Positions 5,240-64,000 of a DNA stretch of 64,000 bases are shown one piece after another (the first letter of the stretch is position 1; each line of letters opens with the position of its first letter). Origin of the DNA: Spirochaetaceae bacterium (GTDB taxonomy: Bacteria > Spirochaetota > Spirochaetia > Treponematales > Rectinemataceae); assembly GCA_025355995.1 (NCBI GenBank), contig JANXYQ010000071.1:1-64000 (forward strand), given 5' to 3'. The notes under the pieces are model-generated. The model was given only the letters and a program-made list of their open reading frames with translations, was not told the origin of the DNA and did no database searches. The translations under genes and the position numbers were made by a program.

Positions 5240-5249
5240 GAAGCCTCCC

Positions 5250-5564: not shown

Positions 5565-5570
5565 ATGAGT

Positions 5571-5598
5571 ACTATATAAACTCTGTTATATAAGTCAA
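5571..5598 (-). promoter_or_regulatory. Promoter of the SUF operon with an overlapping inverted repeat
   Basis: On the minus strand the -35 box TTGACT (5593-5598) is separated by 16 bases from the -10 box TATAGT (5571-5576), which ends six bases before the sufT ATG. A perfect inverted repeat, TATATAA-N6-TTATATA, occupies 5573-5579 and 5586-5592, inside the promoter. The AT-rich island stands out sharply in this GC-rich sequence and is shared with the divergent gene at 5608. An operator for an Fe-S or redox regulator is plausible, but the regulator is unknown. Confidence 0.65.
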
Positions 5599-5607
5599 GA
5601 CATATAT

Positions 5608-6192
5608 ATGGAAATAATACTACTGCTTTGCAGCCCACGGGAGCGATCCTTCAATCGGTCCCTGGCTCTGCGCGCGTCCGAGCTGCTCTCCTCGGCAGGG
5701 CACGCGGTCAGGTTCCACGATCTCTGCGCGGAGGGCTTCGATCCGGTCATGGACGAGTCCGAGCTCGCCCGGGGCTTCAGCCTGAACCCCCTGGTCCAGA
5801 CCCACTGCGCCCAGCTCGGTTCTGCCGGCGGGCTCCTCGTGTTCCATCCCGACTGGTGGGGCGGGCCTCCCGCCCAATTGAAGGGCTGGATAGACCGGGT
5901 ACTGAGGCAGGGGGTCGGCTACGATCTGGAAGGAGCGGACCATGTCGAGAAGGAGTGGAGGCCCCTGCTGGGCGGGAAAAAGGCCCTGGTCTTCGTCACT
6001 ACCGATTCGCCGGACCCCGGCGACGCCTCGCGCCTCGAGCTGTTCTGGTCGAGGCAGGTACTCGGGAAATGCGGGATGATCTGCGGGTGCGAGGTGCTCA
6101 TGGATATGAGGGGAGGGCGTGCCGGGCAGAGGGTCGAATGGATGGCGAGCCTCGAGCGGAGGCTCGCCGAGACCTTCCCCGCCGGTGCCTAG
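5608..6192 (+). CDS. NAD(P)H:quinone oxidoreductase-like flavoprotein (Flavodoxin_2 fold)
   Basis: A 194-residue protein of the NQO/KefF/YwrO type that uses FAD or FMN to reduce quinones or similar acceptors with NAD(P)H. Key stretches are LLLCSPRERSFNRSLA (flavin phosphate loop), FHPDWWGGPPAQLKGWIDRV (the family's W-x-x-P core) and RQGVGYDL. No signal peptide. It is divergent from the SUF operon and shares its AT-rich promoter region. No Shine-Dalgarno site precedes the ATG. Its stop shares the tetranucleotide CTAG with the convergent ferredoxin remnant. Confidence 0.85.
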   Translation: MEIILLLCSPRERSFNRSLALRASELLSSAGHAVRFHDLCAEGFDPVMDESELARGFSLNPLVQTHCAQLGSAGGLLVFHPDWWGGPPAQLKGWIDRVLRQGVGYDLEGADHVEKEWRPLLGGKKALVFVTTDSPDPGDASRLELFWSRQVLGKCGMICGCEVLMDMRGGRAGQRVEWMASLERRLAETFPAGA

Positions 6193-9089: not shown

Positions 9090-10579
9090 GGCGCCGTCCC
9101 TCCGGCTATGCCGGGCAGGGCGAGGGAGAGGAGGGCGAGCACCGGGCGGGGATAGAGGCCTATCCACAGGAGCGCGGCCAGGAGCAGGGCGAGCGTTCCC
9201 GTCTCGATGGCCGAGAGGTCGGCTACCGAGCGCTTCTCCTTGGCCTCGCCATGGAAGGCGAGCTGGAACATCCGCAGCGCGTAGGCCATGGCGAGGATCA
9301 GGCCGAGCCCCGCCGCGACGGCGACCGCCGCCTCGGCCTTGAAGGCCCCGAAGAGGACCAGGAGCTCTCCCACGAAGTTGCCCATTCCCGGCAAGCCCAG
9401 GAGGGCGAGGGTCAGTGCCAGGCCGAATGCACCCATCCTCGGCGCGGCTCGCGCGAGTCCGCCCATGCGGCCGAGCTCCCTCGTACCGATCCTGTCTTGC
9501 AGGGACCCGATCAGCATGAAGAGGGCGCCCGTGGAGAGTCCGTGGCTCAGCATCTGGATCACCACCCCGTTCCGTCCGGCCTCGTTCAGCGAGTAGGCGC
9601 CGACGAGGACGAAGCCGAGGTGGCTCACGCTCGAATAGGCGACGAGGCGCTTCATGTCCGACTGCCCGAGGGCCATGAGCCCGCCGTAGAGGATGCCCGC
9701 CGCGCCGATCCACATCGCGACGGGAGCGAAGGCCCGCGCCGCGTCGGGGAAGAGGGGGATGGCGAAGCGGAGGAGGCCGTAGCCTCCGGTCTTGAGGAGG
9801 AGGCCCGCGAGGAGGATGGAGCCCGCCGTCGGGGCCTCGGTATGGGCGTCGGGCAGCCAGGCGTGCAAGCCGAAGGCCGGGAGCTTGACCGCGAAGCCGG
9901 CGAAGAAGCCCAACATGAGGAGGAACTGGAGAGTCTGCCCGAGGCCGCCAGCGGTCCCCAGCAGCCGGTCGTAGGCGAAGGTGTACTCGCCCGTCGCGGC
10001 GCCGTGGGCGGCGTAGAGGCCCGCTATGGCCGCGATCATGAGGAGTCCGCCGGCCTGGGTGAAGATGAAGAATTTGACGGCCGCCCGATGCCTGCCCTCG
10101 TGTCCCCAGATGTCGATCACGAAGAACATGGGCACGAGCATGAGCTCCCACATGAAGGCGAAGAGGAAGAGATCGCTCGCGAGGAAGACGCCGTTGATGC
10201 CCGCGAGGGTGAGCGAGAGGCAGAAGTGGAAGGAGGGAACCCTCTCGCCGATGCCCTTCCACGAGGCGAGGACGGCCGCCGCGCCCAGGAGGCCCGACAG
10301 GGCGAGGAAGGGAAGGGAGAGGCCGTCGAGGCTGAGCGAGAAGGAGGAGCCCATCGAGGGAATCCAGGCGAGCTCGAGCCGCGCCGGTACCGCTCCTCCT
10401 AGCCAGGCGGCGGCGGCGAGGAGGAGGCAGGCGAGGCTGCCGGCGAGGGTCGCCGCCCGAGCCGCCGCGAGCCGCCCCGGCGCGCTCGAGCGCCCTCCGA
10501 GGACGAGGCTCGCGAGGCCGCAGGCCAGGGGGATGACGATGAATAGGGCCAGGCCTAAAGGAATTGCCTGAAGGTTCAT
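9086..10579 (-). CDS. nuoM: Complex I (NADH type) membrane subunit NuoM
   Basis: Antiporter-like subunit of 497 residues, many membrane helices. Visible signatures are FMWELMLVPMFFVIDIWG (conserved Glu), KLPAFGLHAWLPDAHTEAPT and YSSVSHLGFVLVGAY. It overlaps nuoL and nuoN by four bases each. Typical length for NuoM; no lesion seen. Confidence 0.96.
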   Translation of the reverse strand: MNLQAIPLGLALFIVIPLACGLASLVLGGRSSAPGRLAAARAATLAGSLACLLLAAAAWLGGAVPARLELAWIPSMGSSFSLSLDGLSLPFLALSGLLGAAAVLASWKGIGERVPSFHFCLSLTLAGINGVFLASDLFLFAFMWELMLVPMFFVIDIWGHEGRHRAAVKFFIFTQAGGLLMIAAIAGLYAAHGAATGEYTFAYDRLLGTAGGLGQTLQFLLMLGFFAGFAVKLPAFGLHAWLPDAHTEAPTAGSILLAGLLLKTGGYGLLRFAIPLFPDAARAFAPVAMWIGAAGILYGGLMALGQSDMKRLVAYSSVSHLGFVLVGAYSLNEAGRNGVVIQMLSHGLSTGALFMLIGSLQDRIGTRELGRMGGLARAAPRMGAFGLALTLALLGLPGMGNFVGELLVLFGAFKAEAAVAVAAGLGLILAMAYALRMFQLAFHGEAKEKRSVADLSAIETGTLALLLAALLWIGLYPRPVLALLSLALPGIAGGTAP

Positions 10580-12459
10580 ATGAGGGCCGCCGCGAGGAGG
10601 AGGACGGCGCCTACGGCCAGGGCCGCCAGGTACCGCCCCGGCGGGCCTTTCTGCGTCGAGGCGAGGCGCCGCGAGGCGCGCAGCGTCATCGAGCGCAGGC
10701 CCTCCGATGCGAGATTGACCGGATCGACGCCTTTTCCCGCGAGGCGGGAGAGCGGCCTCGCGAATGCGAAATCGTAGAGCCTATCGAACCCGAAACCGCC
10801 GCGGACGAAGGCGGCCAGCCTCGAGCCCCGAGCGCGGAGGGCGGGGCCGGCCTCCGTCGCGAGCTCCCTCTTGGCGAGCAGCCAGGCGAGGGGGATCCCG
10901 GCGAGGGAGAGGAGGAGGGGGGCCAGCGAGAGCAGGAGCTCCTGTCCGGCGGTCGCTCCGGTATCGGCTGAGGCAGGCAGGGCGCCGCCGAGGAAGGCGC
11001 CGAAGTAGGGTTCGCCGCCGAGGACGCGAGGGAAGTCGACGAGCCCTCCGACGAGGCAGAGGGCGGCGAGGACGACGAGGGGAAGGGCCGTGGAGGCTCC
11101 CATCGCGGAATGCCCGGATGCGCGGGGCCCGCGACTGGCGCCGGCGAATACCAGGAAGAGCATGCGGAAGGTGTAGAGGGAAGTCAGCAGGACTCCCGCC
11201 ATCGCGGCCCACCACAGGAGGCGGGCGTCGCCCCCTGCGTACCAGAGCCGCGCGATGATGGCGTCCTTGCTCGCCAGGCCCGCGGTGACCGGCGGCAGGG
11301 CCGTGAGCCCGAAGGCCCCAGCCAGGAAGGTCCAGAACAGCAGGGGCATTTTCTTCGCGACTCCGCCCATGGCGAGGACGTCCCTCTCGTGGCCGAGGGC
11401 GTTGATGATGGCGCCCGCGGCGAGGAAGAGGAGGGACTTGAAGAGGGCGTGGGTGGCGAGGTGGAAGATAGCGCCGGTCCAGGCCGCCGCGCCGAGGGCG
11501 AGGAACATGTAGCCTATCTGGCTCATCGTCGAGTAGGCGAGGATCCGCTTGAGGTCGCGCTGCGCCAGGGCGCTCGCTCCCGCGACGAGGAGGGTGACCG
11601 CGCCGGCGACCGCTACCGCCGTCATTACCTGCGGCGCTAGCGAGAAGAAGGCGTTCGTCCGCGCGACCAGGTAGACGCCGGCGGTCACCATCGTGGCGGC
11701 GTGGATGAGGGCGCTCACCGGGGAGGGGCCGGCCATCGCGTCCGGCAGCCAGGTGTGCAGGGGGACCTGCGCCGACTTGCCCAGGGCGCCGCCGAGGATG
11801 AGGGCCGCCGCGAGGACGGCAATCCCCGATCCGCGGCCCCACGCGGCCGAGGCGAGGCGAGGCGACTCGCTCAAGCTCAGGCTGCCCAGGTTGGCGGCTA
11901 TCAGGATGATCCCGAGGAGGAGGGCGACGTCGCCGACCCGGGTAACGATGAAGGCCTTGCGCGCCGCGTCGCCGTTGGCCCTGTCCCCGTACCAGAAGCC
12001 TATGAGGAGGAAGCTGCAGAGCCCTACGCCTTCCCAGCCCAGGTAGAGCAGGAGGAAGTTGTCCGCCAGCACGAGGATCAGCATGAAGGCCACGAAGAGA
12101 TTCATGTAGGCGAAGAATCTGTGATAGCCTTCCTCGCCCTCCATGTGCTCGATGGAGAAGAGATGGATCAGGAAGCCGACGATAGTCACCACGAGGATCA
12201 TCACGATCGAGAGGGCGTCGACCGAGAGCGCTAACGCCGGCGAGGCGGCGCCCAGGTCGAGCCAGGGCCACAGGCTCGTCGAATACGGGGCCTTCCCGCC
12301 GGAGGCGAAGAGCCAGGCGACCGCGCAAGCCGAGGCCGCCGAGAGCCCCGCCGCGGCGCTGCCGATGGCGCCGGCCGCCTTGCCCGGCAGCGAGCGGCCG
12401 AGGGCGAGCACGATGAAACCCGCGAGGGGAAAGGCCGGGACGAGCCAGATGAGTTCCAT
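10576..12459 (-). CDS. nuoL: Complex I (NADH type) membrane subunit NuoL
   Basis: The largest antiporter-like subunit, 627 residues. Conserved stretches are GWEGVGLCSFLLIGFWY, GKSAQVPLHTWLPDAMAGP and AYSTMSQIGYMFLALG. The C-terminal part (FGFDRLYDFAFARPLSRLAG) fits the lateral amphipathic helix arm of NuoL. It begins two bases after the nuoK stop and overlaps nuoM by four. Confidence 0.96.
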   Translation of the reverse strand: MELIWLVPAFPLAGFIVLALGRSLPGKAAGAIGSAAAGLSAASACAVAWLFASGGKAPYSTSLWPWLDLGAASPALALSVDALSIVMILVVTIVGFLIHLFSIEHMEGEEGYHRFFAYMNLFVAFMLILVLADNFLLLYLGWEGVGLCSFLLIGFWYGDRANGDAARKAFIVTRVGDVALLLGIILIAANLGSLSLSESPRLASAAWGRGSGIAVLAAALILGGALGKSAQVPLHTWLPDAMAGPSPVSALIHAATMVTAGVYLVARTNAFFSLAPQVMTAVAVAGAVTLLVAGASALAQRDLKRILAYSTMSQIGYMFLALGAAAWTGAIFHLATHALFKSLLFLAAGAIINALGHERDVLAMGGVAKKMPLLFWTFLAGAFGLTALPPVTAGLASKDAIIARLWYAGGDARLLWWAAMAGVLLTSLYTFRMLFLVFAGASRGPRASGHSAMGASTALPLVVLAALCLVGGLVDFPRVLGGEPYFGAFLGGALPASADTGATAGQELLLSLAPLLLSLAGIPLAWLLAKRELATEAGPALRARGSRLAAFVRGGFGFDRLYDFAFARPLSRLAGKGVDPVNLASEGLRSMTLRASRRLASTQKGPPGRYLAALAVGAVLLLAAALI

Positions 12460-12461
12460 AG

Positions 12462-12794
12462 CTACCTGTCCCCCTTCGATGGTCGGCCGGAAAGAGCGCC
12501 GGTAAGGGTGCCCGTGAGGGTGTCCGTGAGGGTGCCCGTGAGGGTGAGGATGAGGGCCAAACCTACCGCCACCTCCGCCGCCGCCGTGACCAGGAGGAAG
12601 ATGAACATGACCTGCCCCGCTGGCTGGCTCCAGCGGGCGCCCGCGATTATGAAGGCGAAGCCCGCCGCGTTGAGCATGATCTCGGCGCAGAGGAGCATGA
12701 AGACGAGGCTCCTCCGCGCGACGATGCCCGCGAGGCCGATGGCGAAGAGCGCCGCCGCGAGGGCGAGCGCGGCCTCGAGACCTTGTCCGCTCAT
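12462..12794 (-). CDS. nuoK: Complex I (NADH type) membrane subunit NuoK with a repeat-made C-terminal tail
   Basis: A 110-residue NuoK with three membrane segments. The conserved glutamates are seen in FMLLCAEIMLNAAG and VTAAAEVAVGLALI. The start ATG at 12794 overlaps the nuoJ stop by four bases. The last 20 residues or so are unusual: a repeated T-G/D-T-L pattern encoded by four 12-base units at 12502-12549, after which the protein ends in a short polar tail. The core is normal, so function is likely kept. Confidence 0.93.
   Translation of the reverse strand: MSGQGLEAALALAAALFAIGLAGIVARRSLVFMLLCAEIMLNAAGFAFIIAGARWSQPAGQVMFIFLLVTAAAEVAVGLALILTLTGTLTDTLTGTLTGALSGRPSKGDR
12502..12549 (-). repeat. 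Four tandem 12-base units at the 3' end of nuoK
   Basis: Read on the plus strand, the units begin at 12502, 12514, 12526 and 12538 and follow GTGAGGGTGCCC with one to three changes each. In frame they encode repeats of Thr-Gly/Asp-Thr-Leu at the NuoK C-terminus. Length variation by slipped-strand mispairing would stay in frame. Confidence 0.9.
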
Positions 12795-13318
12795 CGCTCG
12801 CCTCCTTCGGGTCTCGCGGGCGAGTCGCGCCTGCCGAGGTGGAAGGCGCCGACGAGGCCGGACAGGAGGAGGAAGGCGGCTATCTCGCCGCAGATCGCGT
12901 ACTCGCCGAAGAGGGCGATTCCCACGGCCTTGGGTTCCACCGTCTGCGGCGGGACGGCCGCGGGGAGGGAGGCCGCCCCCGGAGCCAGGAGCCCGGGCTC
13001 GGCGAGGAAGGCGTACAGGAGCTCGCCGAGCAGGACGAGGGCGAGGAGGGAGGGGCCGATCCATCCCGCTCCCCTGGGCCGCGCGTCCTCGGAGCCGAGC
13101 ATCATCACGACGAAGACGAAGAGGACGAGGATGGCGCCTGCGTAGACGATCACCTCGAGGGCGGCCGCGAAGGCCGCCCCGAGCGCGAGCATGGCCACGG
13201 CCAGGGCGAAGAAGGAGACGATCAGGTAGAGCAGGGCGTGCACGGCCCTCCTCTGGAGGATCACCGCCAGCGTCGACGCGACGGCTACGGCGGAGGCGAC
13301 GGCGAGTAGGGCGTTCAT
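12791..13318 (-). CDS. nuoJ: Complex I (NADH type) membrane subunit NuoJ
   Basis: A 175-residue membrane protein with the NuoJ core ALHYLIVSFFALAV-like segment near residue 30 and FVFVVMMLG in helix 3. The start ATG at 13318 gives the normal N-terminus (MNALLAVASAV); it lies 13 bases after the nuoI stop. It overlaps nuoK by four bases. A Pro/Ala-rich loop sits near residues 105-125. Confidence 0.93.
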   Translation of the reverse strand: MNALLAVASAVAVASTLAVILQRRAVHALLYLIVSFFALAVAMLALGAAFAAALEVIVYAGAILVLFVFVVMMLGSEDARPRGAGWIGPSLLALVLLGELLYAFLAEPGLLAPGAASLPAAVPPQTVEPKAVGIALFGEYAICGEIAAFLLLSGLVGAFHLGRRDSPARPEGGER

Positions 13319-13331
13319 GTCTCGTGCCTCG

Positions 13332-13814
13332 TCATGGCAGCAGGCTCCTCGGGTCGACGGGCTTCTTCGGCCTGACCCCCGCGACCGCGTAATAGTCATA
13401 CCCGGGATACTTGCCCTCGCCCTCGACGAGGAGGTCCTCCTTCTCGTAGACGAGGTTTTTGCGCTCGAACTCGCTCATCTCGTAGTCCGGCGTGAGCTGG
13501 ATCGCGTAAGTGGGGCAGGCTTCCTCGCAGAAGCCGCAGAAGATGCACCGGGAGAAATTGATGCGGAAGAAGGCGGGGTAGCGGCGGCCGTCCGGCCTCG
13601 TCGCGGCCTGCAGGGAGATGCAGGAGGGAGGGCAGGCGGCGGCGCAGAGGTTGCATGCTACGCAGCGCTCCTCGCCGGCGGCGTCCCGCGTCAGCACGAT
13701 CCTCCCGCGCCATCGGGGAGGCAGTCGGCGCTTCTCCTCGGGATACTGCACGGTGACCCGCGGCATGAAGAGGTGCTTGAATACTATCCAGATCGAACGC
13801 AGGGCGCTCCACAT
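13332..13814 (-). CDS. nuoI: Complex I (NADH type) ferredoxin-like subunit NuoI
   Basis: Two [4Fe-4S] motifs, [12 protein letters not shown] and [12 protein letters not shown], carry clusters N6a and N6b between the peripheral arm and N2. 160 residues, normal length. The N-terminal segment ([19 protein letters not shown]) is the usual membrane-contacting helix. Confidence 0.96.
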
Positions 13815-13832
13815 GCTGTGCTCCTCTGCCCG

Positions 13833-14801
13833 CTATCTCGGCCCGGCCGTCGCCAGGACGATCGCGCCAGTGGCCACGAGGTTGACCAGGGCTAGCGGCA
13901 GCATCAGCTTCCATCCGAAGGAGATGAGCTGGTCGTATCGGGGGCGCGGCAGCGAGCCGCGCACGAGGATGAAGACGGCGATGAAGAATACGGTCTTGAC
14001 GAGGAACCAGGCAATCGGCGGGAGGAAGGGGCCCGACCAGCCGCCGAAGAAGAGCGTGACGATAATCGCGGAGTTCAGGGTCACGCCGACGTACTCGCCC
14101 AGGTAGAACATCGCGAATTTGAAGCCCGAGTACTCGGTGTGATAGCCGGCGACGAGCTCGTTCTCGGCCTCGGGGAGGTCGAAGGGAACGCGCCTGGTCT
14201 CGGCGAGCGAGGCGACGAAGAACACCGCGAAGCCCAGCGCCTGCGGGACGCAGTTCCACAGGCCCTTCTGCGCGTTCACGATATCCACGAGGCTGAAGGA
14301 TCCCGCCTGCGCGACGACGCCCAGGAGGGAGAGCCCCATGAAGACCTCGTAGCTCACCATCTGTCCCACGGCGCGCACGCTGCCCAGGAGGGAGAACTTG
14401 CTGTTCGAGGCCCAGCCCGACAGGGCAACACCGTAGACGGCCAGCGAGGACATGCCCAGGAAGAAGAGGAGCCCGACGTTGAAATCGGCCACGACGAAGC
14501 CCGGCGCGAGGGGCACTACCGCGAAGGAGGCGAGGGCGGTCGCGATCACGATCGGCGGGGCGAGCACGAAGACGACCTTGTCCGCGAAGGGCGGGACCCA
14601 GTTCTCCTTCGCGAATATCTTGACCGTATCGGCGACCACCTGGAGGAGCCCGAGGGGACCGACCCTGTTCGGGCCGGAGCGCTGTTGCAGCAGGCCGAGG
14701 AGCCTGCGCTCGAGCCAGATGCTGAGCGCCGCGACGATGAGGACGCCGAAGAGGACGGAGAGGATGCCCGCGACGATGGGGAAACCGGCGGTTTCGCTCA
14801 T
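13833..14801 (-). CDS. nuoH: Complex I (NADH type) membrane subunit NuoH
   Basis: Quinone-chamber subunit, 322 residues. Conserved signatures are [37 protein letters not shown] and [17 protein letters not shown]. The ATG at 14801 overlaps the nuoG stop as ATGA. Length and motifs are typical. Confidence 0.97.
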
Positions 14802-17569
14802 CGCGCCGCCTCCTTCGAGGGCCGCACCGCCGCCCAGGACGCGAGGGGAGCCCCCGGCAGCGCGGGCAGGCCCCAGGGCAGCTCGGCGACGCCCTCCGGC
14901 AGGTCCGAAATCGCGACGCGCAGGACCTGGGGGACGGAATCCGCTCCCTCGAACCGGATCTCGGCGCTGGCCCCCTCGGTCAGGCCCAGGCGAGCCGCGT
15001 CCGGCGGGCAGATGAAGAGCCGGGGCTCCGGGATGCGGGTGGCGAGGGCGGGCGACTTGGCGGAGAGCTCCTCGGAGCCGAAGGCGAAACGGCGCGGCAG
15101 CACCAACAGGGCATCGCCCCGCCTGGCGAAGGCGGCGGGAATCCCCGGCGCGCCGGCCCCCGCGCCCCCGAAGGCGAGCTCCCGCAGGGCAGCCCTGCCA
15201 GTCTCCCCGCCGAAGATCCGCGCGCCGATCTCGGCCCCCTCGCCCGCGGCCGAGGGGCGCAGGGCGCCTCCGACCTCGGACTGGAATTTGTGTAGCGACT
15301 GGTCGGAATTCCAGCCCGGTGCCCAATAGCGGGAGAGCAGGGACGGCGGAGCCGCGATCGCCCCTTCCATCGAATAGGCCAGGCCGGAATCGGGATCGAG
15401 GCGGGGATCCGGATCGCGAGGGTCGAGGTTGGCGTGCATCGAGGTTCGGCCGCTCTCGCGCCGGGCTCCGCGGGGTATCTTCTTTCCGAGCATTCTGAAC
15501 GTCGAGGGCGGGGCCGCGTCCACGATCGCGGCGAGCTCGGGAAGCTCCGAGGCTATGGCCGCCAGGATGCCGTCGAGGCTTCTCGGCTCCCTTCCCGGCG
15601 CCGCGAGCTCGTCCAGGGTTCTCCATCCGTCCTGGACGGGGAACTCGCAGGGGCGCAGGGCGATGAAGCGCTGGGCGCGGCCCTCGAACGAGAGGAAAGT
15701 TCCCGAGCCCTCGAGGAGGGTGGCGGCTGGAAGGACGAGGTCCGCCTCCCTCGAGGTGGCGCTGGGCGAGTGGTCGAGGACGATGGTCGCCACGGCCAAG
15801 GCCATGAGGGAGGGACCGTCGCCGCGCACGGCCGCCCGCGACAGGTCGGCCTCCGCGACGACCAGGGCGGCCGGCTCCGGAGCGCCGGCCAGGAGGCGGG
15901 CCGCCGACTCGAGGCCGCCCGCCGCGAGCATGGCCGCGCCGAGGCTGTTCGCCTCCGGGAAGACGAGGCAGATCCTCGCGTCCTGCCCAGCCGCGACGAG
16001 GGCCGACAGGACCGCGGCCGCGGCGCCGACGAGGGCGGCGCTGGCGAGGCCCGAGCCCGATACGACGAGGGGCCGCTTGGCGCGCATCAGGGCGGAGGCT
16101 ATCCGCCGCGCAAGCGCCTCCCGTTCCTCGCCCATGCCCTCGGGCGCGGGACAGGTCGGGTCGATGAAGGCGGCGACCGCGTAGCCGAGCCTCGCGATGT
16201 CGTCGGGAGCCGCGCGGTAGCTGGCCTCGGCGCATTCGTCCAGGGGGCCCGGCCCCGGGCTCGCCACGAAGAAGGGTCCGGGCCTGTCCTGGACGGCCTC
16301 GCGCAGGGCCGCGTCGTCCCAGGCGGGAATCCTCTTCTCCCGCATCGCGGTTTCGTTCGGCGCGTTGCGCGACGCCTGCCTCAGACGGAGCGCCAGGATG
16401 GGCGCGCCGTTCCAGACGTCCTCGCCGAGGACGAGGACGGCGTCGGAGAGCTCGGCCTCGCGGGGCGACGCGACCCTCCGACCCGCGGCGCGGAGGACGT
16501 CGCGCATCAGGCGGTGGAGGGCGAGTTCCCCGTCGCTGATGGCGACGAAGAAGCGATCCGCCCCGACGAGCGACCTGAGCGCGAAGTTGGTCTCGAGCGA
16601 GGCGCGGGGCGAGCCGATGCCGATCGCGCCCGGCTTGGACAAGGCGGCCCGCGCGGCGGCGATCGCGGCCTCCCGTGGCGCGGGGACCTGCCCGCCCGCC
16701 TCCTTGACGAGGCAATGCCTCAGCCTGTCGCCCGAGTCGGCGAAGGCCTGGCCGAAGCGGCCGCGATCGCAGAGGAAGCAGCCGTTGACGTCGGCGTTGT
16801 AGCGAGGCCTCACGCGGCGGAGCTCGCCATAGCGCTCCCCGGGGAGGGTGGAGCAGCCCACCGCGCAGTGGGGGCAAACCGAGGGGCTCGTGCGGAGGTC
16901 CCACTTGCGGGTGGGGCGCGAGGCCTGGACCTTGTCCGTGAAGACACCCGTGGGGCAGACCTCGCAGAGGTTGCCGCTGAACTGGCTCTCGAGCGCGCCG
17001 TCTTCCGTCCTTCCGAAGAACACGGAGTCGTGCCACCCCTGAACGTCGAGGTCCTTGCCTCCGGCGTAGTCGCGGTAGAAGCGGACGCAGCGATAGCATT
17101 GGATGCAGCGGTTCATCTCGTGCGCGACGAAAGGCCCCAGGTCCTGGCTGCGGTGCGTCCTCTTCTCGAAGCGGTAGCGTCGCCTGACGTGCCCGGTCAT
17201 CACGGTCATGTCCTGGAGGTGGCACTCGCCGCCCTCGTCGCAAATCGGGCAATCGTGGGGATGGTTGACCATGAGCCATTCGATGATGCCCGCGCGGAAG
17301 GCCCGCGCCTCGGGGTCCTCGATGGACGCCCGAAGGCCGTTGACCACGGGTGTCATGCAGGCCATCGCGATCCTGCCCCTCGCGTCGGCCTCGTCCTTGT
17401 AGAGCTTGACCCCGCACTGCCTGCAGGCGCCCACCGAGTGCATGGCCGGGTGCCAGCAGAAGTAGGGCAGGTCCAGGCCCAATGAGAGGCAGGCTTCGAG
17501 GAGGTTCTTGCTCTCGGCGCCCTCGATGGAGTAGGGCTTCCCGTCCACGATTATGTTGGCGACGCTCAT
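14798..17569 (-). CDS. nuoG: Complex I (NADH type) large Fe-S subunit NuoG
   Basis: A 923-residue subunit of the NADH module. The N-terminus has the [2Fe-2S] ferredoxin motif around CRQCGVKLY, then [14 protein letters not shown] (N5-type ligands), CIQCYRC (N4-type) and [14 protein letters not shown] followed by GCFLC fits the extra N7 cluster site. The rest is a molybdopterin-oxidoreductase-like domain without obvious cofactor use. The ATG at 17569 overlaps the nuoF stop. Length matches the E. coli type. Confidence 0.95.
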
Positions 17570-18804
17570 TTGTACCTGCAGCCTTTGCGTGCGACGTGAT
17601 CCTCGAAGTCCTCGCGGAAGAGCTTGAGCGCGCTCGCGAGCGGCTCCATGGCCCCGGGGGCGAGAGCGCAGAAGGTGCGGCCCGGAACAAGGGACCGCGC
17701 GTGATGCTCCAGGATTTCGATGTCGCCCATCTCGCCCTCCCCGGACTCGAGGGCCTCGAGGCTGCGCCGCACCCAGGGCAGGCCCTCCCTGCAGGGCGTG
17801 CACCAGCCGCAGGACTCCCGCGCGAAGAAGCGCTCCAGCGAGAGCACCATCCCGACCGGGCAGGTCCGGTCGTCCAGGACGACCATGGTGCCCGTGCCCA
17901 GCCGCGAGCCGGCGGCCGCCACCGAGTCGAAATCCATCTTGACGTCCAGCTTGGAGGCGGGGAGGAAGTCGGTGGAGGCGCCGCCGGGGAGGAAAGCGCG
18001 CAAGGCCCGGCCCGGATGCATTCCCCCGGCGCGTTCGAGGACCTCGCCCGCGCTGACGCCCAGGGGGAGCTCCCAGAGGCCGGGCGAGGCGACCCAGCCG
18101 CTCGCGCCGTAGATCTTGGTCCCTCCGTCGGAGGAGGCCGATAGCGCCTTGAACCACTCGGGGCCTTCCCTCATTATGTGGGGGAGGTTGCAGAGGGTCT
18201 CGACGTTGTTGACCACCGTGGGCCTGCCCCAGAGGCCGGAGACCTGCGGGAAGGGGGGCTTGTTCCTGGGCACCGCGCGCTTGCCTTCTATGGCGTTGAG
18301 CAGGCCGGTCTCCTCGCCGCATAGATAGCGGCCCGCGCCCAGGTGGAGGTGGAGCCTCAAGCCCTCGAGCAGCCCGGCGACCCTCGCCTCGCCGACGGCC
18401 TTCTCGAGCTCGAGTGCGCAACGAGTATACTCGCGCCTGAGATAGATGAACGCGGTGCCGGCGCCTATCGCGGTGGCGGCTATCGCCAGCCCCTCGATCA
18501 GCTGGTGCGGATCGCCCTCCATGAGGTAGCGGTCCTTCATCGTGCCGGGCTCCTTCTCGTCCGCGTTGACGACGAGGTAGCGCTCGCCGCCGTCCGGCGG
18601 AGGGACAGCCGCCCACTTCATCGCGGTGGGGAAGCCCGCCCCGCCCCTGCCCCTGAGGCCCGAGGCCTTCACGGCCTCCTGGACGGCGGGAGCGCCCAGC
18701 TCGCGGGCGCGCGCCAGGCCGAGATAGCCTCCGGCCGCCCTGTATCCGGCGAAGGAGGCTGCCCCTCCACCCGCGGGCATCCTAGCGCTGAGCGGCGTCG
18801 CCAC
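17566..18804 (-). CDS. nuoF: Complex I NADH-binding subunit NuoF
   Basis: Carries FMN and the NADH site. [16 protein letters not shown] and [20 protein letters not shown] are the flavin and NADH motifs; [12 protein letters not shown] holds the N3 [4Fe-4S] cluster with a distal Cys in RTFCAL. 412 residues. The GTG at 18804 has GGAGGAAG just upstream and overlaps nuoE by 23 bases; an ATG at 18780 with a one-base gap is the alternative. Confidence 0.95.
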
Positions 18805-19276
18805 GCTTCCTCCCGCGGATGCCGTCCAGTATGGCGTCCAGTTTTTCGGTCGTCAGGCCGCCGTAGGCCTCGCCGTCGATCATCGCGGCGGGAGCGGCTT
18901 CGCAGAGCCCGAGGCAGCCCGCCGGGACGAGGGTGAAGAGCCCGTCGGCCGTCGTTCCCCCGAGCTCGACGCCCAGGCGCTCCCGCAGGTGATCGAGGAT
19001 GCTCTCGCCGTCCCTGATCCAGCAGCTGACCGAGTCGCAGATCTGGATGACGTGCTCCCCGACGGGGAGGCGGTAGACGAGCTCGTAGAAGGTGGCGACG
19101 CTCTCCGCCGAGGCGGATGAGATCCCCAGCTCCCGAGCGGCGTCGGCGAGGGCCTCGTCTCCGAGCCAGCCCCGGGCCTCCTGGGCGATCATGAGGGCCT
19201 CGGAAAGGGCGGCCCGCCTGGAAGGGTAGCGGCCCGCCTCGGCCTCGATGCGTTCCTTCTCGTCGCGGCTCAGCAT
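18782..19276 (-). CDS. nuoE: Complex I [2Fe-2S] subunit NuoE
   Basis: A thioredoxin-fold [2Fe-2S] protein of 164 residues, holder of cluster N1a. Ligand cysteines are in CDSVSC and GCLGLC, the standard C-x4-C and C-x3-C spacing. The N-terminal helical part (YPSRRAALSEALMIAQEARGW) is typical. Ten bases after the nuoCD stop. Confidence 0.95.
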   Translation of the reverse strand: MLSRDEKERIEAEAGRYPSRRAALSEALMIAQEARGWLGDEALADAARELGISSASAESVATFYELVYRLPVGEHVIQICDSVSCWIRDGESILDHLRERLGVELGGTTADGLFTLVPAGCLGLCEAAPAAMIDGEAYGGLTTEKLDAILDGIRGRKRGDAAQR

Positions 19277-19286
19277 GCTGCCTTCC

Positions 19287-21038
19287 TCATCTGTCCACGT
19301 CCGCCAGCACGTAGTCGACGCTGCCCAGGATCACGACCAGGTCCGATATGGTGAGCCCCCTCGCCATCATGGGCGCCATCTGGATGTGGGCGAAGGAGGG
19401 GGTCCGTATCCGGGTGCGGTAGGACATGCCGCCGCCGTCGCTCACTAGGTAATAGGAGTTCTGCCCCTTCGCGGCCTCGACGGTCGCGCAGGCTTCGCCC
19501 GGCGGGAGGTTCGGGCCCCAGCTCACCGCGAGGAAGTGGTCGATCAGCGTTTCGATGTCGCGCATCGTGCGGTCCTTCGGCGGCGGGACCGCGAGGGGGT
19601 GGTCGGCCTTGTAGGGCCCCGCCGGCATCCCCGCGACGCACTGCTCGATGATGCGCAGGCTCTGCCTCATCTCCTCGACGTGGATGGCGAGGCGGTCGTA
19701 GGAGTCCCCGCCCGTCGCCGTCGGGACGTCGAAGTCGAAGCGCTCGTAGCCGCCGTAGGGCCGCTTCTTGCGCAGGTCCCAGTCGAGTCCGCAGGCGCGC
19801 AGGAAGGGGCCCGTGGCGCCCCACTCGACGGCCTCGCCCAGGCTGAGCGCGCCGACGCCGACGGTGCGGGCCTTGAAGAGGCTCGAGCGCATTATGGCCG
19901 CGTCGTAGTCCTTCAGTGTCCCCCTCATGTGCTTGACGAAGGCGAGGACCATCTCGTCCCAGCCCCGTGGCAGGTCCATCGCCACGCCGCCTATCCTGAA
20001 CCAGCCCGGGTGCATGCGGCCGCCGGTCACCGCCTCGACGATGTCGAAGGCGCGCTCGCGGTCGTTGAACATGTAGAAGACCGGGGACATCTGGCCGACG
20101 TCCTGGCTGAAGGTGCCGTAGAAGACGAGGTGGCTGATGATGCGGAAGAGCTCGGCCATCATGACGCGGATCACCAGGGCGCGCTCGGGCACCTCGATGC
20201 CCGCCAGCTTCTCGACCGCGAGCAGGTAGGGCAGCTCGTTCATCGAGCCGGCCAGGTAGTCGATCCGGTCGGTGTAGGGGATGTAGGTGTGCCAGGACTG
20301 CCGCTCGCCCATCTTCTCGGCGCCGCGGTGGTGGTAGCCGATGTCGGGGTAGAGGTCGACGACGACCTCGCCCTCGAGCTTGGCGACGAGCCGCAGGACC
20401 CCGTGAGCGCTGGGATGCTGGGGGCCGATGTTGATATAGAAGGTGCCGGCCCCGGCTTCCGGCCCCGGCCCGTCGACCTGCCATTTGACCGGATCGAATT
20501 TCAGCTCCTCGAGCATCGCTGCCTGCTCGTCCTCGCTCATGCCGAAGCGCCCCATGTCGGTGGCGCGGGCGGGATGCTCCTTGCGCAGGGGGTGGCCCTC
20601 CCACCACGGCGGCATGAGGATGCGCCTTAAGGCCGGACGCCCCTCGAAGGCGATGCCGAACATGTCCCAGACCTCGCGCTCGTAGAAGTCGGCGCTCGGC
20701 CAGAGGCAGGTCGCGCTCGGGACCGAGGGCGCCTGGCCCTCGAGGGCCACCTTGATGCGGAGATCCTCGTTCCTCTCGAAGGAGAGGAGCTGGTAGACCA
20801 TGGTGAAGTCCGAGGGCGGCTGCCCCTCCCGGTGGGAGCGCTCGCGCTCGTCGATGGCGGTCAGGTCGTAGAGCATCGGGTAGGCTCCGGACCGCGCCGT
20901 CTTGAGGTAGGAGAGGAGATCGAGGAGGAGGCCGGGCTCCACCCAGGCGGTGGGCAGGCCGTCCGCGGTCTCCTGCGCGTGGATTCGCTCGGCGCCGAAG
21001 GTCTCGGCGAGCTCCCTCAGGATGGCGTCCCTCTCCAT
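19287..21038 (-). CDS. nuoCD: Complex I fused subunit NuoCD
   Basis: One 583-residue protein combines NuoC (residues about 1-175; motifs [12 protein letters not shown] and GHPLRKE) and NuoD (from about 205; motifs [22 protein letters not shown] and the C-terminal [18 protein letters not shown]). The fusion is the E. coli arrangement. The second nuo cluster in this window keeps nuoC and nuoD separate, so the two clusters have different histories. Confidence 0.96.
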
Positions 21039-21047
21039 CGGCCTTTC

Positions 21048-21641
21048 CTATATCCCGTCCGGCGGCTCGAGGCCGCCGCGGACGCGCCGCTCGTCGCGCA
21101 TGATGTCGCGCATCGAGGGCCTCGCGGGCTTGACCACGCCCTGGGGCCCCACCACCCAGGATAGGGGCCGCTTCTCCTGCTCGATCGATTCCTGCAGGAG
21201 GGTCAGCCCGCGCATGAAGGAGTCGGGGCTCGGGGGGCAGCCCTGGATGTAAATATCGACGGGGAGGAAGGAGTCCACTCCCTGGACGACGCTGTAGATG
21301 TCGTACATCCCGCCCGAGCCCGCGCAGGAGCCCATCGATATCACCCAACGCGGCTCCATCATCTGCTCCCACATGTGCCGCACGATGGGCGCCATCTTCT
21401 TGAACACCGTGCCGGCGACTACCATGACGTCCGCCTCGCGCGGCGAGCCGCGGATGATCTCCGAGCCGAAGCGCGCCAGGTCGTACTTGCTCGTGAGGGC
21501 GGTCGCCAGCTCCACGTAGCAGCAGGAGAGGCCGAAGTTGAAGGGCCAGAGTGAGCGCGAACGGCCCCAGGCCAGGAGGTCAGCCCTGCGCGCGAGCTGG
21601 ATGTCCGCGAAGGGGTGGGCGGAAGGGTCGGGCGCCTTCAT
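21048..21641 (-). CDS. nuoB: Complex I (NADH type) subunit NuoB
   Basis: Holder of the terminal cluster N2. Ligands are seen in [10 protein letters not shown] (tandem cysteines), MGSCAGSGG and [10 protein letters not shown]. 197 residues. It overlaps nuoA by four bases at its start and is nine bases from nuoCD. Confidence 0.96.
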
Positions 21642-22036
21642 TTGGACAGTCCGTGCCTCTTCAGGTGCTCGGCGGCGCGCAACCTGCCCCAGTCGAAGGC
21701 CCCGGACTTCCAGAGGTAGGCGAGGCCGAGGACCGTCTCGATGAGGAAGGCCAGCATGGCCGCGAAACCCGGCCAGCCGAGCTCGCGCGCGGCGACGGCC
21801 CAGGCGAAGAGGAAGACCGAGGAGGCGTCGAAGACCACGAAGAACATCGCGATGAGGTAGAAGTCGGCGGGGAAGGGCACTCGCGCGCTACCGGTGGGAA
21901 GGACGCCCGATTCGTAGGGAGCGCCCGTGCCGCGTTGGGCATGGCGCTCGCCCAGCAGGTGGGTGACCCCGAGAAGGAAGGCCACCAGCGCGATCACCAG
22001 GAGAAGATAGCTAGCCAGCGCCGCCATTCCACCCAT
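21638..22036 (-). CDS. nuoA: Complex I (NADH type) membrane subunit NuoA
   Basis: Three membrane segments in 132 residues. [18 protein letters not shown] and [15 protein letters not shown] are the loop and helix signatures. No Shine-Dalgarno site precedes the ATG at 22036; a strong promoter has its -10 box six bases upstream, so the transcript may begin at the start codon. Confidence 0.95.
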
Positions 22037-59151: not shown

Positions 59152-59656
59152 GGAGCTTCGCCTTCGCTATGGCCGGGCTCCGCAGCTTCGCTCGGAGCTT
59201 GAGGAAGGCGTCGATGAGGGCTTCGGGCCGCGGCGGACAGCCAGGCACGTAGACATCGACGGGCACGATCTTGTCAACGCCCTCGACCACGGAGTACGAA
59301 TCGGCGAAAGGCCCGCCGCAGATGGCGCAGCTGCCCATCGCCATCACGTACTTGGGCTCGGGCATCTGGTCGTACAGGCGCCGAAGCAGGGGGGCCATCT
59401 TGTCCGTCACGGTCCCCGCGACGATCATGAGGTCGGCCTGCCGCGGCGAAGGGCGGAATACCTCGAAGCCGAAGCGCGAGAGGTCGTAGCGCGCCCCGCC
59501 CGCGGCCATCATCTCGATGGCGCAGCAGGCGAGGCCGAAGGCGACCGGCCAGATGGAGTTCGACCTGCAGAAATCGAGGCCCTTCTCCACCGAGGAGAAG
59601 GCGATATAAATGGCGTTGTTCTTGAGTTCCTCTACGTCCCTCTCGGCTAGTTCCAT
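59144..59656 (-). CDS. nuoB: Second complex I: NuoB
   Basis: 170 residues. N2 ligands: [20 protein letters not shown] and [10 protein letters not shown]. The ATG at 59656 overlaps the end of nuo[21 protein letters not shown] is a normal N-terminus. Confidence 0.96.
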
Positions 59657-60003
59657 TCGAAGGCTCCCTTGCGCCAGGCGTACCAAATCCCCATCGCGAG
59701 CACCGCGATGAATATCGCCATCTCGGCGAAGGAGACCATCCCCGAGGCCTTGAAGGTCAGCGCCCAGGGAAAGAGGAAGACGGTCTCGACGTCGAAGACG
59801 ACGAAGACCAGCGCGTATAGGTAGTAACCGATCTTGAACTGGATCCAGGTCTGTCCCTCGGTGTCGAGTCCGCACTCGTAGGTGCGCTCCTTCTCCCTCC
59901 CGCCGTGGCGGGGGCGGAAGAGCCAGTTGGTCGCGAGGACCACGAGTGCGAAGAGCATTCCCCCCGCGGCGAAGATGACGAGGGGCAGGTATCCCGTAGA
60001 CAT
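59647..60003 (-). CDS. nuoA: Second complex I: NuoA
   Basis: 118 residues, three membrane helices. [18 protein letters not shown] is the cysteine-bearing loop and [15 protein letters not shown] the conserved helix. It starts 17 bases after the stop of the FAD/Fe-S gene. Confidence 0.95.
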
Positions 60004-60020
60004 ATGCGCCTCCGCCCCTT

Positions 60021-63000
60021 CTAGAAGATCGCCGTCGCCGGCAGCTTCTTGGTCTTGATATAGCCGATCATCGAGGGAGTCACTATTTTCGCGATCGCCG
60101 GCAGGACGTGGGGCATCATGTGGTCCATCGTCTTGGGCATGAGGTCGGGCATCTGCTTCCGCATGTGCTCGGGCATGGCGATCATCCCCTCGATTATCGC
60201 GAGCATGGCTGGCATCACCTTCGGCATGAGTATGGGCATGAGCAGGGGCATCATGCCCGGCATCATCGCGGCCATGAGCCTGTCGAGGCCGGGAACCTTC
60301 GCCAGCCGCATCATGCCGCGCAGGGGCAGGGGAAGGGCCGCGATCATATCCGGTATGAGCATGGTCATGAGCTTGGCCATGTTCTCCGTCTGCATGAGGG
60401 TAATGACTTTGTCGAAGACGCCCCACATCTCGAGCGCGTAGCCCGTCGGGTCCGGCAGGTCAATGCCGAGGCCCTTGGCGGCGAGCGACGCGAGGTCCTT
60501 TACCGGCATGTCCTGGTGATTCACGTCGGCAGATACCCGCATCTGGAACTGGCAGCAGGGGCAGAGTGCCACGACGGCGTCGGCCCCGGTCGCGATGGCC
60601 TCGTCTATCTTGCGCTTGCCGAGCACGTTGGCGGTGGGCTCGGGCTCGCTGATGCGGGTCAGGACCGAGCCGCAGCACAGCGCGTCCTCGCGGTTGTGCG
60701 CCATCTCGACCAGAGTGACCCCGGGTATGGCCTCGAGCATCGTGCGCGGAGGCTCGTATATCCCTCCGGCGCGCCCGATGTGGCAGGAATCGTGGAAGGT
60801 CACCTTCAGGTCCACGCTATGGGTGAACTTCATCTCGCCCGACGCTATCTTCTCGGCGACTATCTCGGAGTAGTGCTTGGCCTCGATGCCGTACTCGATC
60901 CCGAGCTTCTTGGCCCATTGCGGGTAGTAGGTGTGCCAGGTGAGCCAGCAGGCGGGGCAGGAGGCGACTACCGTCTTCACCCCCTTCTCCCGCATCTTGG
61001 AGATGTTGTGCCTCATTATCTCCTCGAAGACGTCCCAGCGCCCCGAGACGAGCATCGGTATGCCGCAGCAAGCTTCGTCCTTGCCGAGGGTGGTGAACTC
61101 GATCCCCGCCGCTTCGAGGAGGCGCGCCGAGCCAACCGCGATGTCGGGCTCGACGAAGGAGGCGGTACAGCCCGCGAAGTAGGCGACCTCGGCCCTGTCC
61201 TTGATCTTGGCCCTAAGGTCCTCCGGGATCCACTTGTCGCGGTCCGCGGCGAAGCTGGCCCAGATGTTCTTCTCCTTGCGCGCGCTCGCCGCCATGAGCT
61301 CGAAGGCCGGGAAGGTCATCTGCTTGCCCGTGTTCACGAGCTCTCCGCGCATCACCGCCCAGGAGTTCTCTATGGGCAGGTCCAGCTGGCACTCGAAGTC
61401 GCAGCGCTCGCAGGTCGTGCACATTAAAAAGGAGTCGGTGACCTCCTGATCGAATTTGTCCTTGCCCTCGGCAACACGGCGGATGAAGGCCCACTTGCCC
61501 CGGGGGCTCGACGACTCCCAGCCCTTGCCGTCATAGAGGGTGCAGACCTGCCTGCAATAGCCGCAGCCCGCGCAGGCGTAGGCGTACCAGACGATGTCGC
61601 CGGGCACGCCGCGCTTGGCCTGCCAGACCTCTTTGAGCCGCGGCTTCACCGTGTTGCCCATGATCCTCACTATGGGCTCGAACCAGAGCGCGAGGGTGAT
61701 GACGAGCTTCATGAGGGGTATGCCGGAGAGCTTGCGCGAGTTGAAGAGATCGCGGTCGTCCTTGTCCCGCTTGTGGCCCTGCCAGAGCTTGAGCCTCATG
61801 CCGTGGACGGCGCGGGCCTCCTGGGCGAGGAAGAGGCCGGAGGCGTAGGCGCGGCCGCCCAGGCGCTTGGCGAGCCTCAGGATGCTCAAGGAGAGAGTGA
61901 AGGCGAGGTTGAAGCTGAACTTCCTCGAGTCGTGCGGGATGAGGCAGAGGAGGATGACCTCCTCGCCCTTCACCGCCGTGGCCTCGACGACGACGGGCGG
62001 CTTGATCATCGCCTCGAGGCGGTTGTAGAAAGTCGAGAGGGCCGAGAGGGGGATGATCACCTCGGCGGGAACCATCGAGGGGCCGATGCGCTTGGCCTTC
62101 ATCGGATTGAAGCGATCCGCCCACTCGTGGTCCCTCATCCAATCAGGCAGCCAGGAGGCGCCCGCGGCCGCCACTATCGCCCTTAACTTGGGCTCGGCTT
62201 CGGCCGCCCTCGATTCGGGGCAGGCGAGCATCATGATGTAGGATTCCGGGAGAATCGGCCGAGGGTGGGGCTCGCCGTTGTGCGTCTTGGGCGGAACCAG
62301 GTTCTTGAGCCGGGCGGCCGTCGGGTTCATGAAGCCGACGTGCCAGAGCGGCAGTCCCTGCCTCTGCGCCTGGACGATGATCTCCTGCACCTTGGATATG
62401 GTTAGGGCTTCGATCGCGAAGACTCTATCGGCCTCGCTCCTGCGCAGGCGGATGGTGAGGCTCGTGATAATGCCCGTCGTGCCCATAGCCCCGCCCACGA
62501 GGGCGAGATCGCGGCCGGTCAGCAGCCGGCGCGAGCCATCGGGGTTGATCAGGGTCGCCGATTCGACGTTCTGCTCGAACCAGCCGTACTGGTAGCTGCC
62601 GAAGCCCCCGCCGCCCTGGGCCAGCCAGCCGCCGACTGTGGCGCCGGGGGTGCTCGTCGGCATCATGCGCGGAGCGAGGCCGCGGAAGGCGAGCTGGAAT
62701 ATCAGCTGCTTCCATACTATGCCGGGCTCGACGGTGGCGGTCATTTTCTCCGCGTCGACCGAAATGACCTTGTCGAGGTGAATCAGCTCCACGACCACCG
62801 CGCCGTCGGGGGGCACGACGCCGCCGTAGCCGGAGGTCGCGGCCGCGCGCGGCACGACCTGGACCTTGTTTTTCGCGGCCCATTCTACTACTGCGGCTAC
62901 CTCGGCCTCGCTCCTGGGTTGGACTATGGCCGAGGGAACCGTGCGGCCGACGAGGAGCTTGGGCATGGAGGGCAGCTCTCCGATGTCGCTCTCGTAGAGG

Positions 63001-63092
63001 TGGCGCTCGCGCTCGCTCACGTTGATTCGCAGGCCGTCGATGCGTTCCAGCGAGGCGAGGGCCTCGGTACCCAGATCCCTAAGCTTCGACAC
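60021..63092 (-). CDS. Large FAD/Fe-S oxidoreductase (GlcD-GlcF/YdiJ-like fusion) with Met-rich tail, upstream of the second complex I
   Basis: 1023 residues. An FAD_binding_4 domain (about 50-200) has [36 protein letters not shown] and [10 protein letters not shown] second domain follows to about 480. Two [4Fe-4S] motifs sit near 505 ([11 protein letters not shown]) and 557 ([11 protein letters not shown]). Two CCG-type domains follow, with ACCGIP, SCPACW, FHDSCH, LCCGS and CPCC. Residues about 880-1010 are hydrophobic and rich in Met and Pro (some 26 Met). The order resembles E. coli YdiJ and GlcD+GlcF, which oxidise D-2-hydroxyacids. The GTG at 63092 has AGGGGG upstream. First gene of the eleven-subunit nuo operon; a role as electron donor to it is inferred. 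Confidence 0.85.
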
Positions 63093-63257: not shown

Positions 63258-64000
63258 CTAGATCCGTATGCCCTGAACGGCCAGCGAAACCAGGGCTACA
63301 GCCGCCCAGCAGGCCAGCCCGAGGAGTATCGGCCGCAGGCCGTTCTCGATCAGCTCCCTCGGCTTCGTGTTGAGGCCGATTGCGGCCATCGCTGCGCAGA
63401 TGCCGAACTTGCCGACGTCGTTCAGCGTCGGGAACGATTCTGCCGGGAGTATCCCGATCGTCCGGACGAGGGATGCCGCGAGGAAGCCCAGGACGAACCA
63501 GGGGAAGATCTTCGCGAGGTCGACGTTCCCGCCTTTTTTCGCTGAGCCGCGCTTCCGGTAAAGCGCGAGTATCAGGGTTACCGGGATTATCATGAGGGTG
63601 CGGGTTAGCTTGACGACGGTGGCGTAGCGACCCGCCTGGTCGCTATAAGAGAAGGCAGCAGCCACCACTGATGACGTGTCGTTGATCGCCGTCCCGGCCC
63701 AAAGCCCGAATTGGCTATCGGACATCTTGAACAGGTGGCCGAGGGCGGGAAAGACGAATACGGCGATAATGTTGAAGAGGAAAATAGTAGAGATCGCAAA
63801 GGCGACTTCCGTATCGTCGGCCTCGATCACCGGGGCGGTCGCCGCTATAGCGGAGCCTCCGCAGATCGAGGTCCCGACGCCGATCAGTATCTTCGTGTTC
63901 GCGTCGAGGCCGAGGGCTTTCCCGACAAGATAGGCCGTGATGAAGGCTGCAGTGAGCGTGAATAGCATGACGGACAGGGATTGCAGGCCTACCCGCGCTA
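63258..64000 (-). CDS. YeiH/UPF0324-family membrane protein, partial (N-terminus beyond right edge)
   Basis: The last 247 residues or so of a polytopic membrane protein. GVGTSICGGSAIAATAPVI and GLWAGTAINDTSSVVAAA are diagnostic of YeiH (UPF0324), and the end has FGICAAMAAIGLNTKPREL. The reading frame is open to the window edge; the ATG at 63968 is internal, since family-like sequence (GLQSLSV) precedes it. Putative inner-membrane exporter; the substrate is uncertain (sulfonate or sulfate has been suggested for the family). Confidence 0.82.
   Translation of the reverse strand, partial: ARVGLQSLSVMLFTLTAAFITAYLVGKALGLDANTKILIGVGTSICGGSAIAATAPVIEADDTEVAFAISTIFLFNIIAVFVFPALGHLFKMSDSQFGLWAGTAINDTSSVVAAAFSYSDQAGRYATVVKLTRTLMIIPVTLILALYRKRGSAKKGGNVDLAKIFPWFVLGFLAASLVRTIGILPAESFPTLNDVGKFGICAAMAAIGLNTKPRELIENGLRPILLGLACWAAVALVSLAVQGIRI

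Follow-up and report, generated by a model that had tools for sequence, protein, structure and literature searches.

The FAD/Fe-S oxidoreductase studied here ends in a Met/Pro-rich C-terminal domain of about 140 residues that is conserved and not an oddity of one gene; it is the signature of a distinct subfamily of stand-alone FAD/Fe-S oxidoreductases. The domain is real, undescribed in the databases and literature that we searched, and not a feature of complex I. Its four-residue Met/Pro repeat makes it an unusual domain in an otherwise known kind of redox enzyme, and it probably docks the enzyme to a membrane or to a partner.

Domain layout and composition

The tailed gene lies in a 64,000-nucleotide stretch of Spirochaetaceae DNA (the window), where it occupies positions 60021-63092 on the minus strand and encodes 1023 amino acids. 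FAD_binding_4, two [4Fe-4S] motifs and two CCG domains follow one another in this order, and the tail takes over from about residue 880, past the last hallmark of the enzyme, the second CCG motif, which ends at Cys847. The features referred to in this study are the following:

61797..63074, minus strand: VAO-type FAD domain, residues 7-432, with FAD_binding_4 at 53-187 (Pfam PF01565, E 4.5e-35; mLDHD 8jdy, Z 23.7 over 7-432)
61377..61583, minus strand: two [4Fe-4S] motifs CxxCxxCxxxC, C507-C517 and C558-C568 (Pfam Fer4_17/Fer4_8; motif inspection)
60552..61169, minus strand: two CCG domains with C642, C675, C676, C712, C715 and C770, C806, C807, C844, C846, C847 (Pfam CCG, E 1.3e-36, two stretches)
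60021..60455, minus strand: Met/Pro tail domain, residues 880-1023 plus stop codon (conserved in 26 aligned members; absent from the eight tail-less relatives inspected)
60297..60446, minus strand: N-terminal part of the tail, residues 883-932, short predicted helices (alignment and model)
60201..60275, minus strand: tetrad array A, residues 940-964, within a predicted long helix at about 936-970 (alignment and model)
60057..60176, minus strand: tetrad array B, residues 973-1012, with a predicted long helix at about 981-1014 (alignment and model)
59647..60003, minus strand: nuoA, which heads an 11-gene nuo operon and begins 17 bp after the stop codon of the tail; the intervening bases include an SD-like GGAGG

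The CCG cysteines listed are invariant in all 26 aligned members, and both CCG motifs are complete with five Cys each, which at motif level is the HdrB-type noncubane pattern. The N-terminal domain has the VAO-type FAD fold of GlcD- and D-lactate-type enzymes. The HxGDGNxH metal motif is that of the C-terminal FAD-oxidase domain of 2-hydroxyacid dehydrogenases; it was found neither in the window protein nor in three relatives tested, and Pfam gave no FAD-oxidase_C match in the window protein (E up to 1).

An earlier note on this DNA had described a Met/Pro-rich tail, and the translation bears this out: 26 Met and 16 Pro fall within the final 140 residues, as against 27 Met in the first 879, and the repeated units that the note had named, [26 protein letters not shown], are present. 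When the whole protein was shuffled 2000 times, the most Met-rich stretch of 140 residues contained 12.7 Met on average and 21 at most. Given that GC3 in the tail is like that in the body (0.91 and 0.90, respectively) and that the tail is conserved in other lineages, it is real coding DNA. Two other frames overlap it. The reading frame of nuoA continues without a stop upstream of its start and overlaps the tail out of frame, giving a 259-residue, His/Asp-rich, start-extended ORF (59647-60426, minus strand), and an antisense His-rich frame (60108-61427, plus strand) mirrors the Met codons; both are traps for automatic gene callers.

Conservation and distribution of the tail

A profile of the tail matched 2 of 247 genomes sampled from the window's phylum, 14 of 345 from the phylum of G290, 14 of 63 from the class of G288 and 10 of 396 from the phylum of G289, plus G018. 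With one fragment dropped from the G290-phylum sample and one from the G289-phylum sample, the count stands at 40 copies in 39 genomes, always on the same FAD/Fe-S protein of about 1,030 aa. Three weak matches had been set aside before this count: one in G375, spanning 31 profile positions in a 36-aa frame (E 1.5e-7), one in G1064 (E 0.003) and an additional one in G472 (E 0.007). Their loci (L057, L232, L058) contain no Met/Pro-rich frame of note. On no other protein was the tail found in the 1051 genomes (247 + 345 + 63 + 396) or in viral contigs, the latter holding no relative of it at all. Matches in the plasmid collection (27 records) were partial and confined to the Fe-S part, none of them reaching 80% of the query.

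For 33 of the 40 copies the open frame is 1,023 aa or longer; the seven shorter ones comprise four at contig ends (G569, G667, G681, G695), two broken copies (G398, G562) and that of G1024. Copies broken into several frames were seen at L078 (2164-5321) and L080 (about 4517-6107), where a pseudogene or an assembly error would account for them. Full-length relatives with the same tail are 43-48% identical to the window protein and come from the window's own family (L003, L004), Syntrophomonas sp. UBA5288 (L032), isolate GSL_GB14_3 (L033) and a Deltaproteobacteria MAG (L034).

The 26 aligned tails are 138-160 aa long, contain 21-30 Met and 17-23 Pro, and share 34-46% identity with the window tail. 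In one of the alignments used, the L076 sequence includes X where part of its body is masked. Twenty-three tail columns are invariant in the 26 members, Met and Pro among them; those in the N-terminal part are W890, F893, I897, A906, M909, A919, P921, M927 and M928. For five close pairs with usable dS in both parts, dN/dS was 0.045-0.10 in the tail and 0.038-0.12 in the body; by this estimate, purifying selection on the tail is strong and equal to that on the enzyme body. A chance or low-complexity expansion was rejected because the tail is conserved and its dN/dS is low. No other member has diverged nearly as far as the window copy, which sits on a lone long branch (1.37) and is changed at 25 of 202 columns that are invariant in the other 25 members. 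The copies of G010 and G018, which belong to the window's family, fall in another clade (100/100), and this placement suggests that they and the window copy were perhaps acquired separately.

Tail and enzyme body occur together

A profile of the enzyme body matched 58 of 63 genomes in the class of G288 (E up to 1e-40) and 86 of 345 in the phylum of G290 (E up to 1e-60). In both groups the scores split cleanly: intact members over about 1,000 bits are the tailed ones, and below them are relatives encoded as two proteins of about 490 and 390 aa or as single fusions of about 860-960 aa. All eight tail-less relatives inspected (L115-L119, L144, L145, L147) stop at about the position of residue 876, just after CCG; a ninth candidate, L157, yielded no C-terminal CCG frame. 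Because the body scores split cleanly and the inspected tail-less relatives end after CCG, the tail defines a subfamily.

These end points, together with scores far under the NCBIfam cut-offs, also confirm the earlier view that the tail lies outside the YdiJ and GlcF architecture. YdiJ-type and GlcD-GlcF-type enzymes share FAD_binding_4, a dicluster ferredoxin and CCG with the tailed protein, in one chain or in adjacent genes, whereas the tailed protein reaches only 41.7 of 1350 bits for the D-2-hydroxyglutarate dehydrogenase YdiJ (NF049975), 74.1 of 567.9 for GlcD and 65.6 of 333 for GlcF.

Four-residue period and predicted structure of the tail

Met and Pro in the window tail recur at lags 4, 8 and 12 and form two arrays, at residues 940-964 and 973-1012. 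At lag 4 there are 12 Met-Met pairs, where 4.4 would be expected, and Pro-Pro pairs number 6, 6 and 7 at lags 4, 8 and 12, where about 2 would be. Over its last 75 residues the tail keeps to a strict tetrad, [Met/Phe/Leu]-Pro-polar-[Leu/Met/Val]. Across the 26 sequences, Pro 945, 949, 953, 957 and 961 of array A and Pro 974, 982, 986, 994 and 1002 of array B are present in 88-100%, and Met 973, 977, 981, 985, 989 and 993 of array B in 77-100%.

Hydrophobic moment analysis of the averaged alignment revealed a peak at 90 degrees for residues 936-970 (permutation p 0.0006) and at 92 degrees for residues 973-1012 (permutation p 0.0002). In both arrays the moment was near zero at 100 degrees, the normal helix angle, and the tail therefore does not encode a straight amphipathic helix lying flat. 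Individual sequences peaked at 85-93 degrees, or about 4.0 residues per turn, in 26 of 26 cases for both arrays, and the N-terminal part of the tail (about 882-932) had no significant periodicity (p 0.24). The height of the moment is not by itself unique to the tail, because 36-residue windows of the body come close (up to 0.34 at 90 degrees and 0.425 at some other angle, compared with 0.41 in the tail). Familiar coiled coils have 3.5-3.75 residues per hydrophobic repeat, a range outside which the 4.0 of the tail falls.

Mean hydropathy is positive in 24 of the 26 tails, yet low in many, and net charge ranges from -9 to +4, being negative in 15. An integral membrane segment is expected to have a 19-residue mean hydropathy above about 1.6, a value exceeded in only five of the 26 tails. 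The window tail reaches 1.78 in a stretch that Pro and Lys interrupt. No 19-residue stretch of the window protein scores higher, and the other most hydrophobic ones are near residues 196, 367 and 457-478. A transmembrane anchor is unlikely, as hydropathy is too low in 21 of 26 tails and Pro too regular. Metal binding, which the earlier note had offered as one possible function, was rejected, since no invariant tail residue among the 26 members is Cys or His.

AF2 models were built from four sequences each. The model of the tail alone was all helix (pLDDT 80.6, pTM 0.68), with helices at 10-27, 30-39, 41-47, 50-60, 64-98 and 103-142 of a 151-residue segment starting at residue 873; that of the full protein was weak (pLDDT 59.1, pTM 0.40). 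By prediction, the tail thus consists of short helices followed by two long ones with Met, Pro and Leu/Phe every four residues, which would leave one polar position in each four. The full model retrieved EtfD, D-lactate dehydrogenase and HdrB in a fold search, through its other domains; the tail lay outside these matches. A Foldseek search with the tail alone gave no match in PDB, which does not in itself prove a new fold, and one meaningless match among viral structures. Pfam and NCBIfam searches over the 26 tails produced scattered chance-level matches (lowest E 0.0077 in one member and 0.005 in two, respectively), no chain among the PDB sequences was matched by the tail profile, and the literature searched contained no description of the tail.

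Gene neighborhood and complex I

No conserved partner gene was found beside the 31 copies examined. The gene is mostly solitary, and only an ArsR-type regulator recurs, at most about 70 bp upstream in seven of the 31 (L035, L037, L076, L078, L079, L081, L082). HTH_5 was confirmed for the regulator in L037, L079 and L082, and also in L077, where it lies 1.4 kb upstream. The window copy has no ArsR-type gene directly upstream; at 165 bp upstream, on the same strand, is a YeiH-like PF03601 membrane protein that runs past the window end (63258-64000, minus strand). In L094, L096 and L097, genes for serine dehydratase beta and alpha, the tailed gene and a Na/H-exchanger/TrkA-type gene form one row on one strand (families checked in L096). 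Acyl-CoA-dehydrogenase-like genes, recognized by inspection, lie about 0.3-2.5 kb downstream in L078, L079 and L091.

The window copy alone adjoins nuoA, and the 17-bp gap on the same strand suggests co-transcription in the window lineage, where the tailed protein may feed this complex I. The proposal in the earlier note that the tail would bring the protein to NuoA/NuoH did not hold, by the very test that the note had set: none of the 31 other copies lies near nuo genes (flanks examined, at most about 19 kb; the contigs of L076, L089 and L098 end within about 310 bp downstream). In G010 and G018, the counterparts of this nuo operon, whose NuoB and NuoD are 79-80% and 64-65% identical to those of the window, start at nuoA without the tailed gene, and the tailed protein is encoded elsewhere in both genomes. 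NuoD matches (E up to 1e-20) were equally frequent among carriers and non-carriers of the tailed protein, at 20 of 28 genomes in each set; this comparison does not factor in completeness, and its control genomes were hand-picked from the same two groups and include two NuoD matches of only about 164 bits (G637, G639). G320, G341 and G377 carry the tailed protein and gave no NuoD match at that threshold. In a set of 58 relatives of the window genome, the three genomes that encode the full-length tailed protein are also the three with the closest NuoD (over 500 bits), too few to weigh much. Neither a conserved nuo linkage nor a co-occurrence of the kind that would mark an electron-input module substituting for NuoEFG was found. 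Docking specific to nuo was rejected on the absence of linkage in 31 copies, the G010 and G018 operons without the gene and the lack of genome-level association; the tail is independent of complex I.

The window also carries a second nuo locus (7617-22036, minus strand) with matches to NuoA, B, D, H, I, J, L, M and N and with NuoF (PF01512) at 18181-18672. The genome thus has NuoF, and the nuo operon at 50-60 kb is a separate, EFG-less set. A single 1285-aa frame at 13833-17690 (minus strand) matches NuoH with its residues 976-1274, and its first 975 residues have no Pfam match (E up to 1e-5); it may be a fusion, or a mere frame left open by high GC.

Discussion

The mycobacterial ETF:menaquinone oxidoreductase EtfD (M. 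smegmatis, PDB 9ojn) resembles the tailed protein in having two cubane [4Fe-4S] motifs, two CCG domains and an extra region after CCG, and it was matched by residues 495-878 of the full AF2 model with Z 23.9. As described in its report (PMC13083937), EtfD differs in its five membrane helices and heme b and receives electrons from a separate ETF, whereas the N-terminus of the tailed protein is a VAO-type FAD domain; the tail of EtfD is disordered and poorly conserved, whereas the Met/Pro tail is ordered by prediction and highly conserved. The route proposed there leads from ETF through the CCG clusters, the two cubanes and heme b to menaquinone (PMC13083937). The tailed protein has the two [4Fe-4S] and two CCG motifs of EtfD/DUF224 proteins and no multi-helix membrane domain with heme ligands. 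HdrB and HdrD are like it in both CCG motifs with five Cys (HdrB 5odc_B, Z 19.8) and differ in having neither a fused FAD domain nor the tail; heterodisulfide chemistry would not be expected in the tail-carrying bacteria.

Our preferred reading, which we put forward tentatively, is that the helical, Met-lined, Pro-kinked domain docks this EtfD/HdrB-like electron wire on the membrane face. A membrane-binding or docking tail was also the suggestion of the earlier note, and this part remains our best guess, detached from NuoA/NuoH. The mostly hydrophobic surface would hold the otherwise soluble enzyme on the cytoplasmic side of the membrane without crossing it. Substrate electrons would enter at the fused FAD and travel by way of the CCG clusters to the two cubane clusters, the order proposed for mycobacterial EtfD, before passing to an acceptor in the membrane, probably menaquinone; in this scheme the tail would take the place of the five membrane helices and heme of EtfD. 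Because the gene precedes nuoA in the window lineage, these electrons may there also be passed to the EFG-less complex I or be drawn from it. We favor membrane docking because a mostly hydrophobic, predicted-helical, Met-lined domain is the best candidate for membrane contact. The conservation of the tail, its body-like dN/dS, the moment near 90 degrees, the helical model and the mostly positive hydropathy are consistent with it, as is a cluster part that matches EtfD and HdrB in a protein with no EtfD-like membrane module.

Several observations hold this reading back. The charge of the tail is often neutral or acidic, while many membrane-surface helices are basic. The near-zero moment at 100 degrees and the non-periodic N-terminal part of the tail also count against it. 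The tailed protein contains no recognizable quinone site, and the models rest on four sequences, the full one being poor. Precedent, by contrast, speaks for the reading: EtfD and HdrB work in wires that end at quinone or disulfide (PMC13083937), and S. wolfei reportedly relies on a membrane Fe-S protein (DUF224) to link EtfAB with menaquinone (PMC3582634); the carrier L032 shares its genus with S. wolfei.

Docking to a partner is nearly as likely. The Met-lined tetrad helices would then bind an acyl-CoA dehydrogenase- or ETF-like donor, a soluble acceptor or, by self-assembly, a second copy of the enzyme. In EtfD, electrons probably enter at the CCG end, which faces away from the membrane, and the disordered C-terminal tail at that end is proposed to bind ETF (PMC13083937); the Met/Pro tail is likewise C-terminal to the CCG domains, and this geometry favors a partner over the membrane. 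The neutral-to-acidic charge and low mean hydropathy of many tails fit a soluble packed bundle, and the acyl-CoA-dehydrogenase-like genes downstream of three copies would suit such a donor, whereas the mostly solitary gene, with no conserved neighbor beside 31 copies, argues against it.

A broader version of membrane docking is doubtful: the tail would represent a new module, a Met/Pro tetrad helix or tetrapeptide turn-spiral of 4.0 residues per repeat, that provides membrane-surface docking and quinone access for a soluble flavin/Fe-S wire in several bacterial phyla. It is unlikely that the tail is an intramolecular lid, packed on the CCG and FAD domains of its own chain and shielding oxygen-sensitive clusters. 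The strict, subfamily-specific coupling of tail and body and the many invariant Met and Pro, suited to a specific packed surface, agree with a lid, and EtfD shields its clusters from solvent (PMC13083937); however, tail-less CCG relatives manage without one, and the full AF2 model is too weak to show contacts.

Very little weight falls on a tail that puts the enzyme at NuoA/NuoH as an electron input replacing NuoEFG: the spacing to nuoA and the three relatives with both proteins, perhaps the product of two acquisitions, are outweighed by the unlinked copies, the operons without the gene, the equal NuoD counts in other groups and the three carriers with no NuoD match. Least probable of all is a binding site for a hydrophobic small ligand, such as a fatty-acyl or other lipid substrate, for which speak the fitness of flexible Met-rich surfaces, as in the SRP54 M domain, for varied hydrophobic ligands and an FAD domain without HxGDGNxH, whose substrate need not be a 2-hydroxyacid; the tail profile, with 0 PDB chains matched, does not support a resemblance to SRP54, and no sequence or fold match to a lipid-binding protein was found.

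The tail marks a solitary, widespread and uncharacterized redox enzyme of bacteria that include Syntrophomonas-type anaerobes, and its strict four-residue Met/Pro period across lineages is a structural puzzle in its own right. If the tail docks to the membrane, it would connect an electron wire to quinone without transmembrane helices or heme, and would serve as a simple sequence marker for such a connection.
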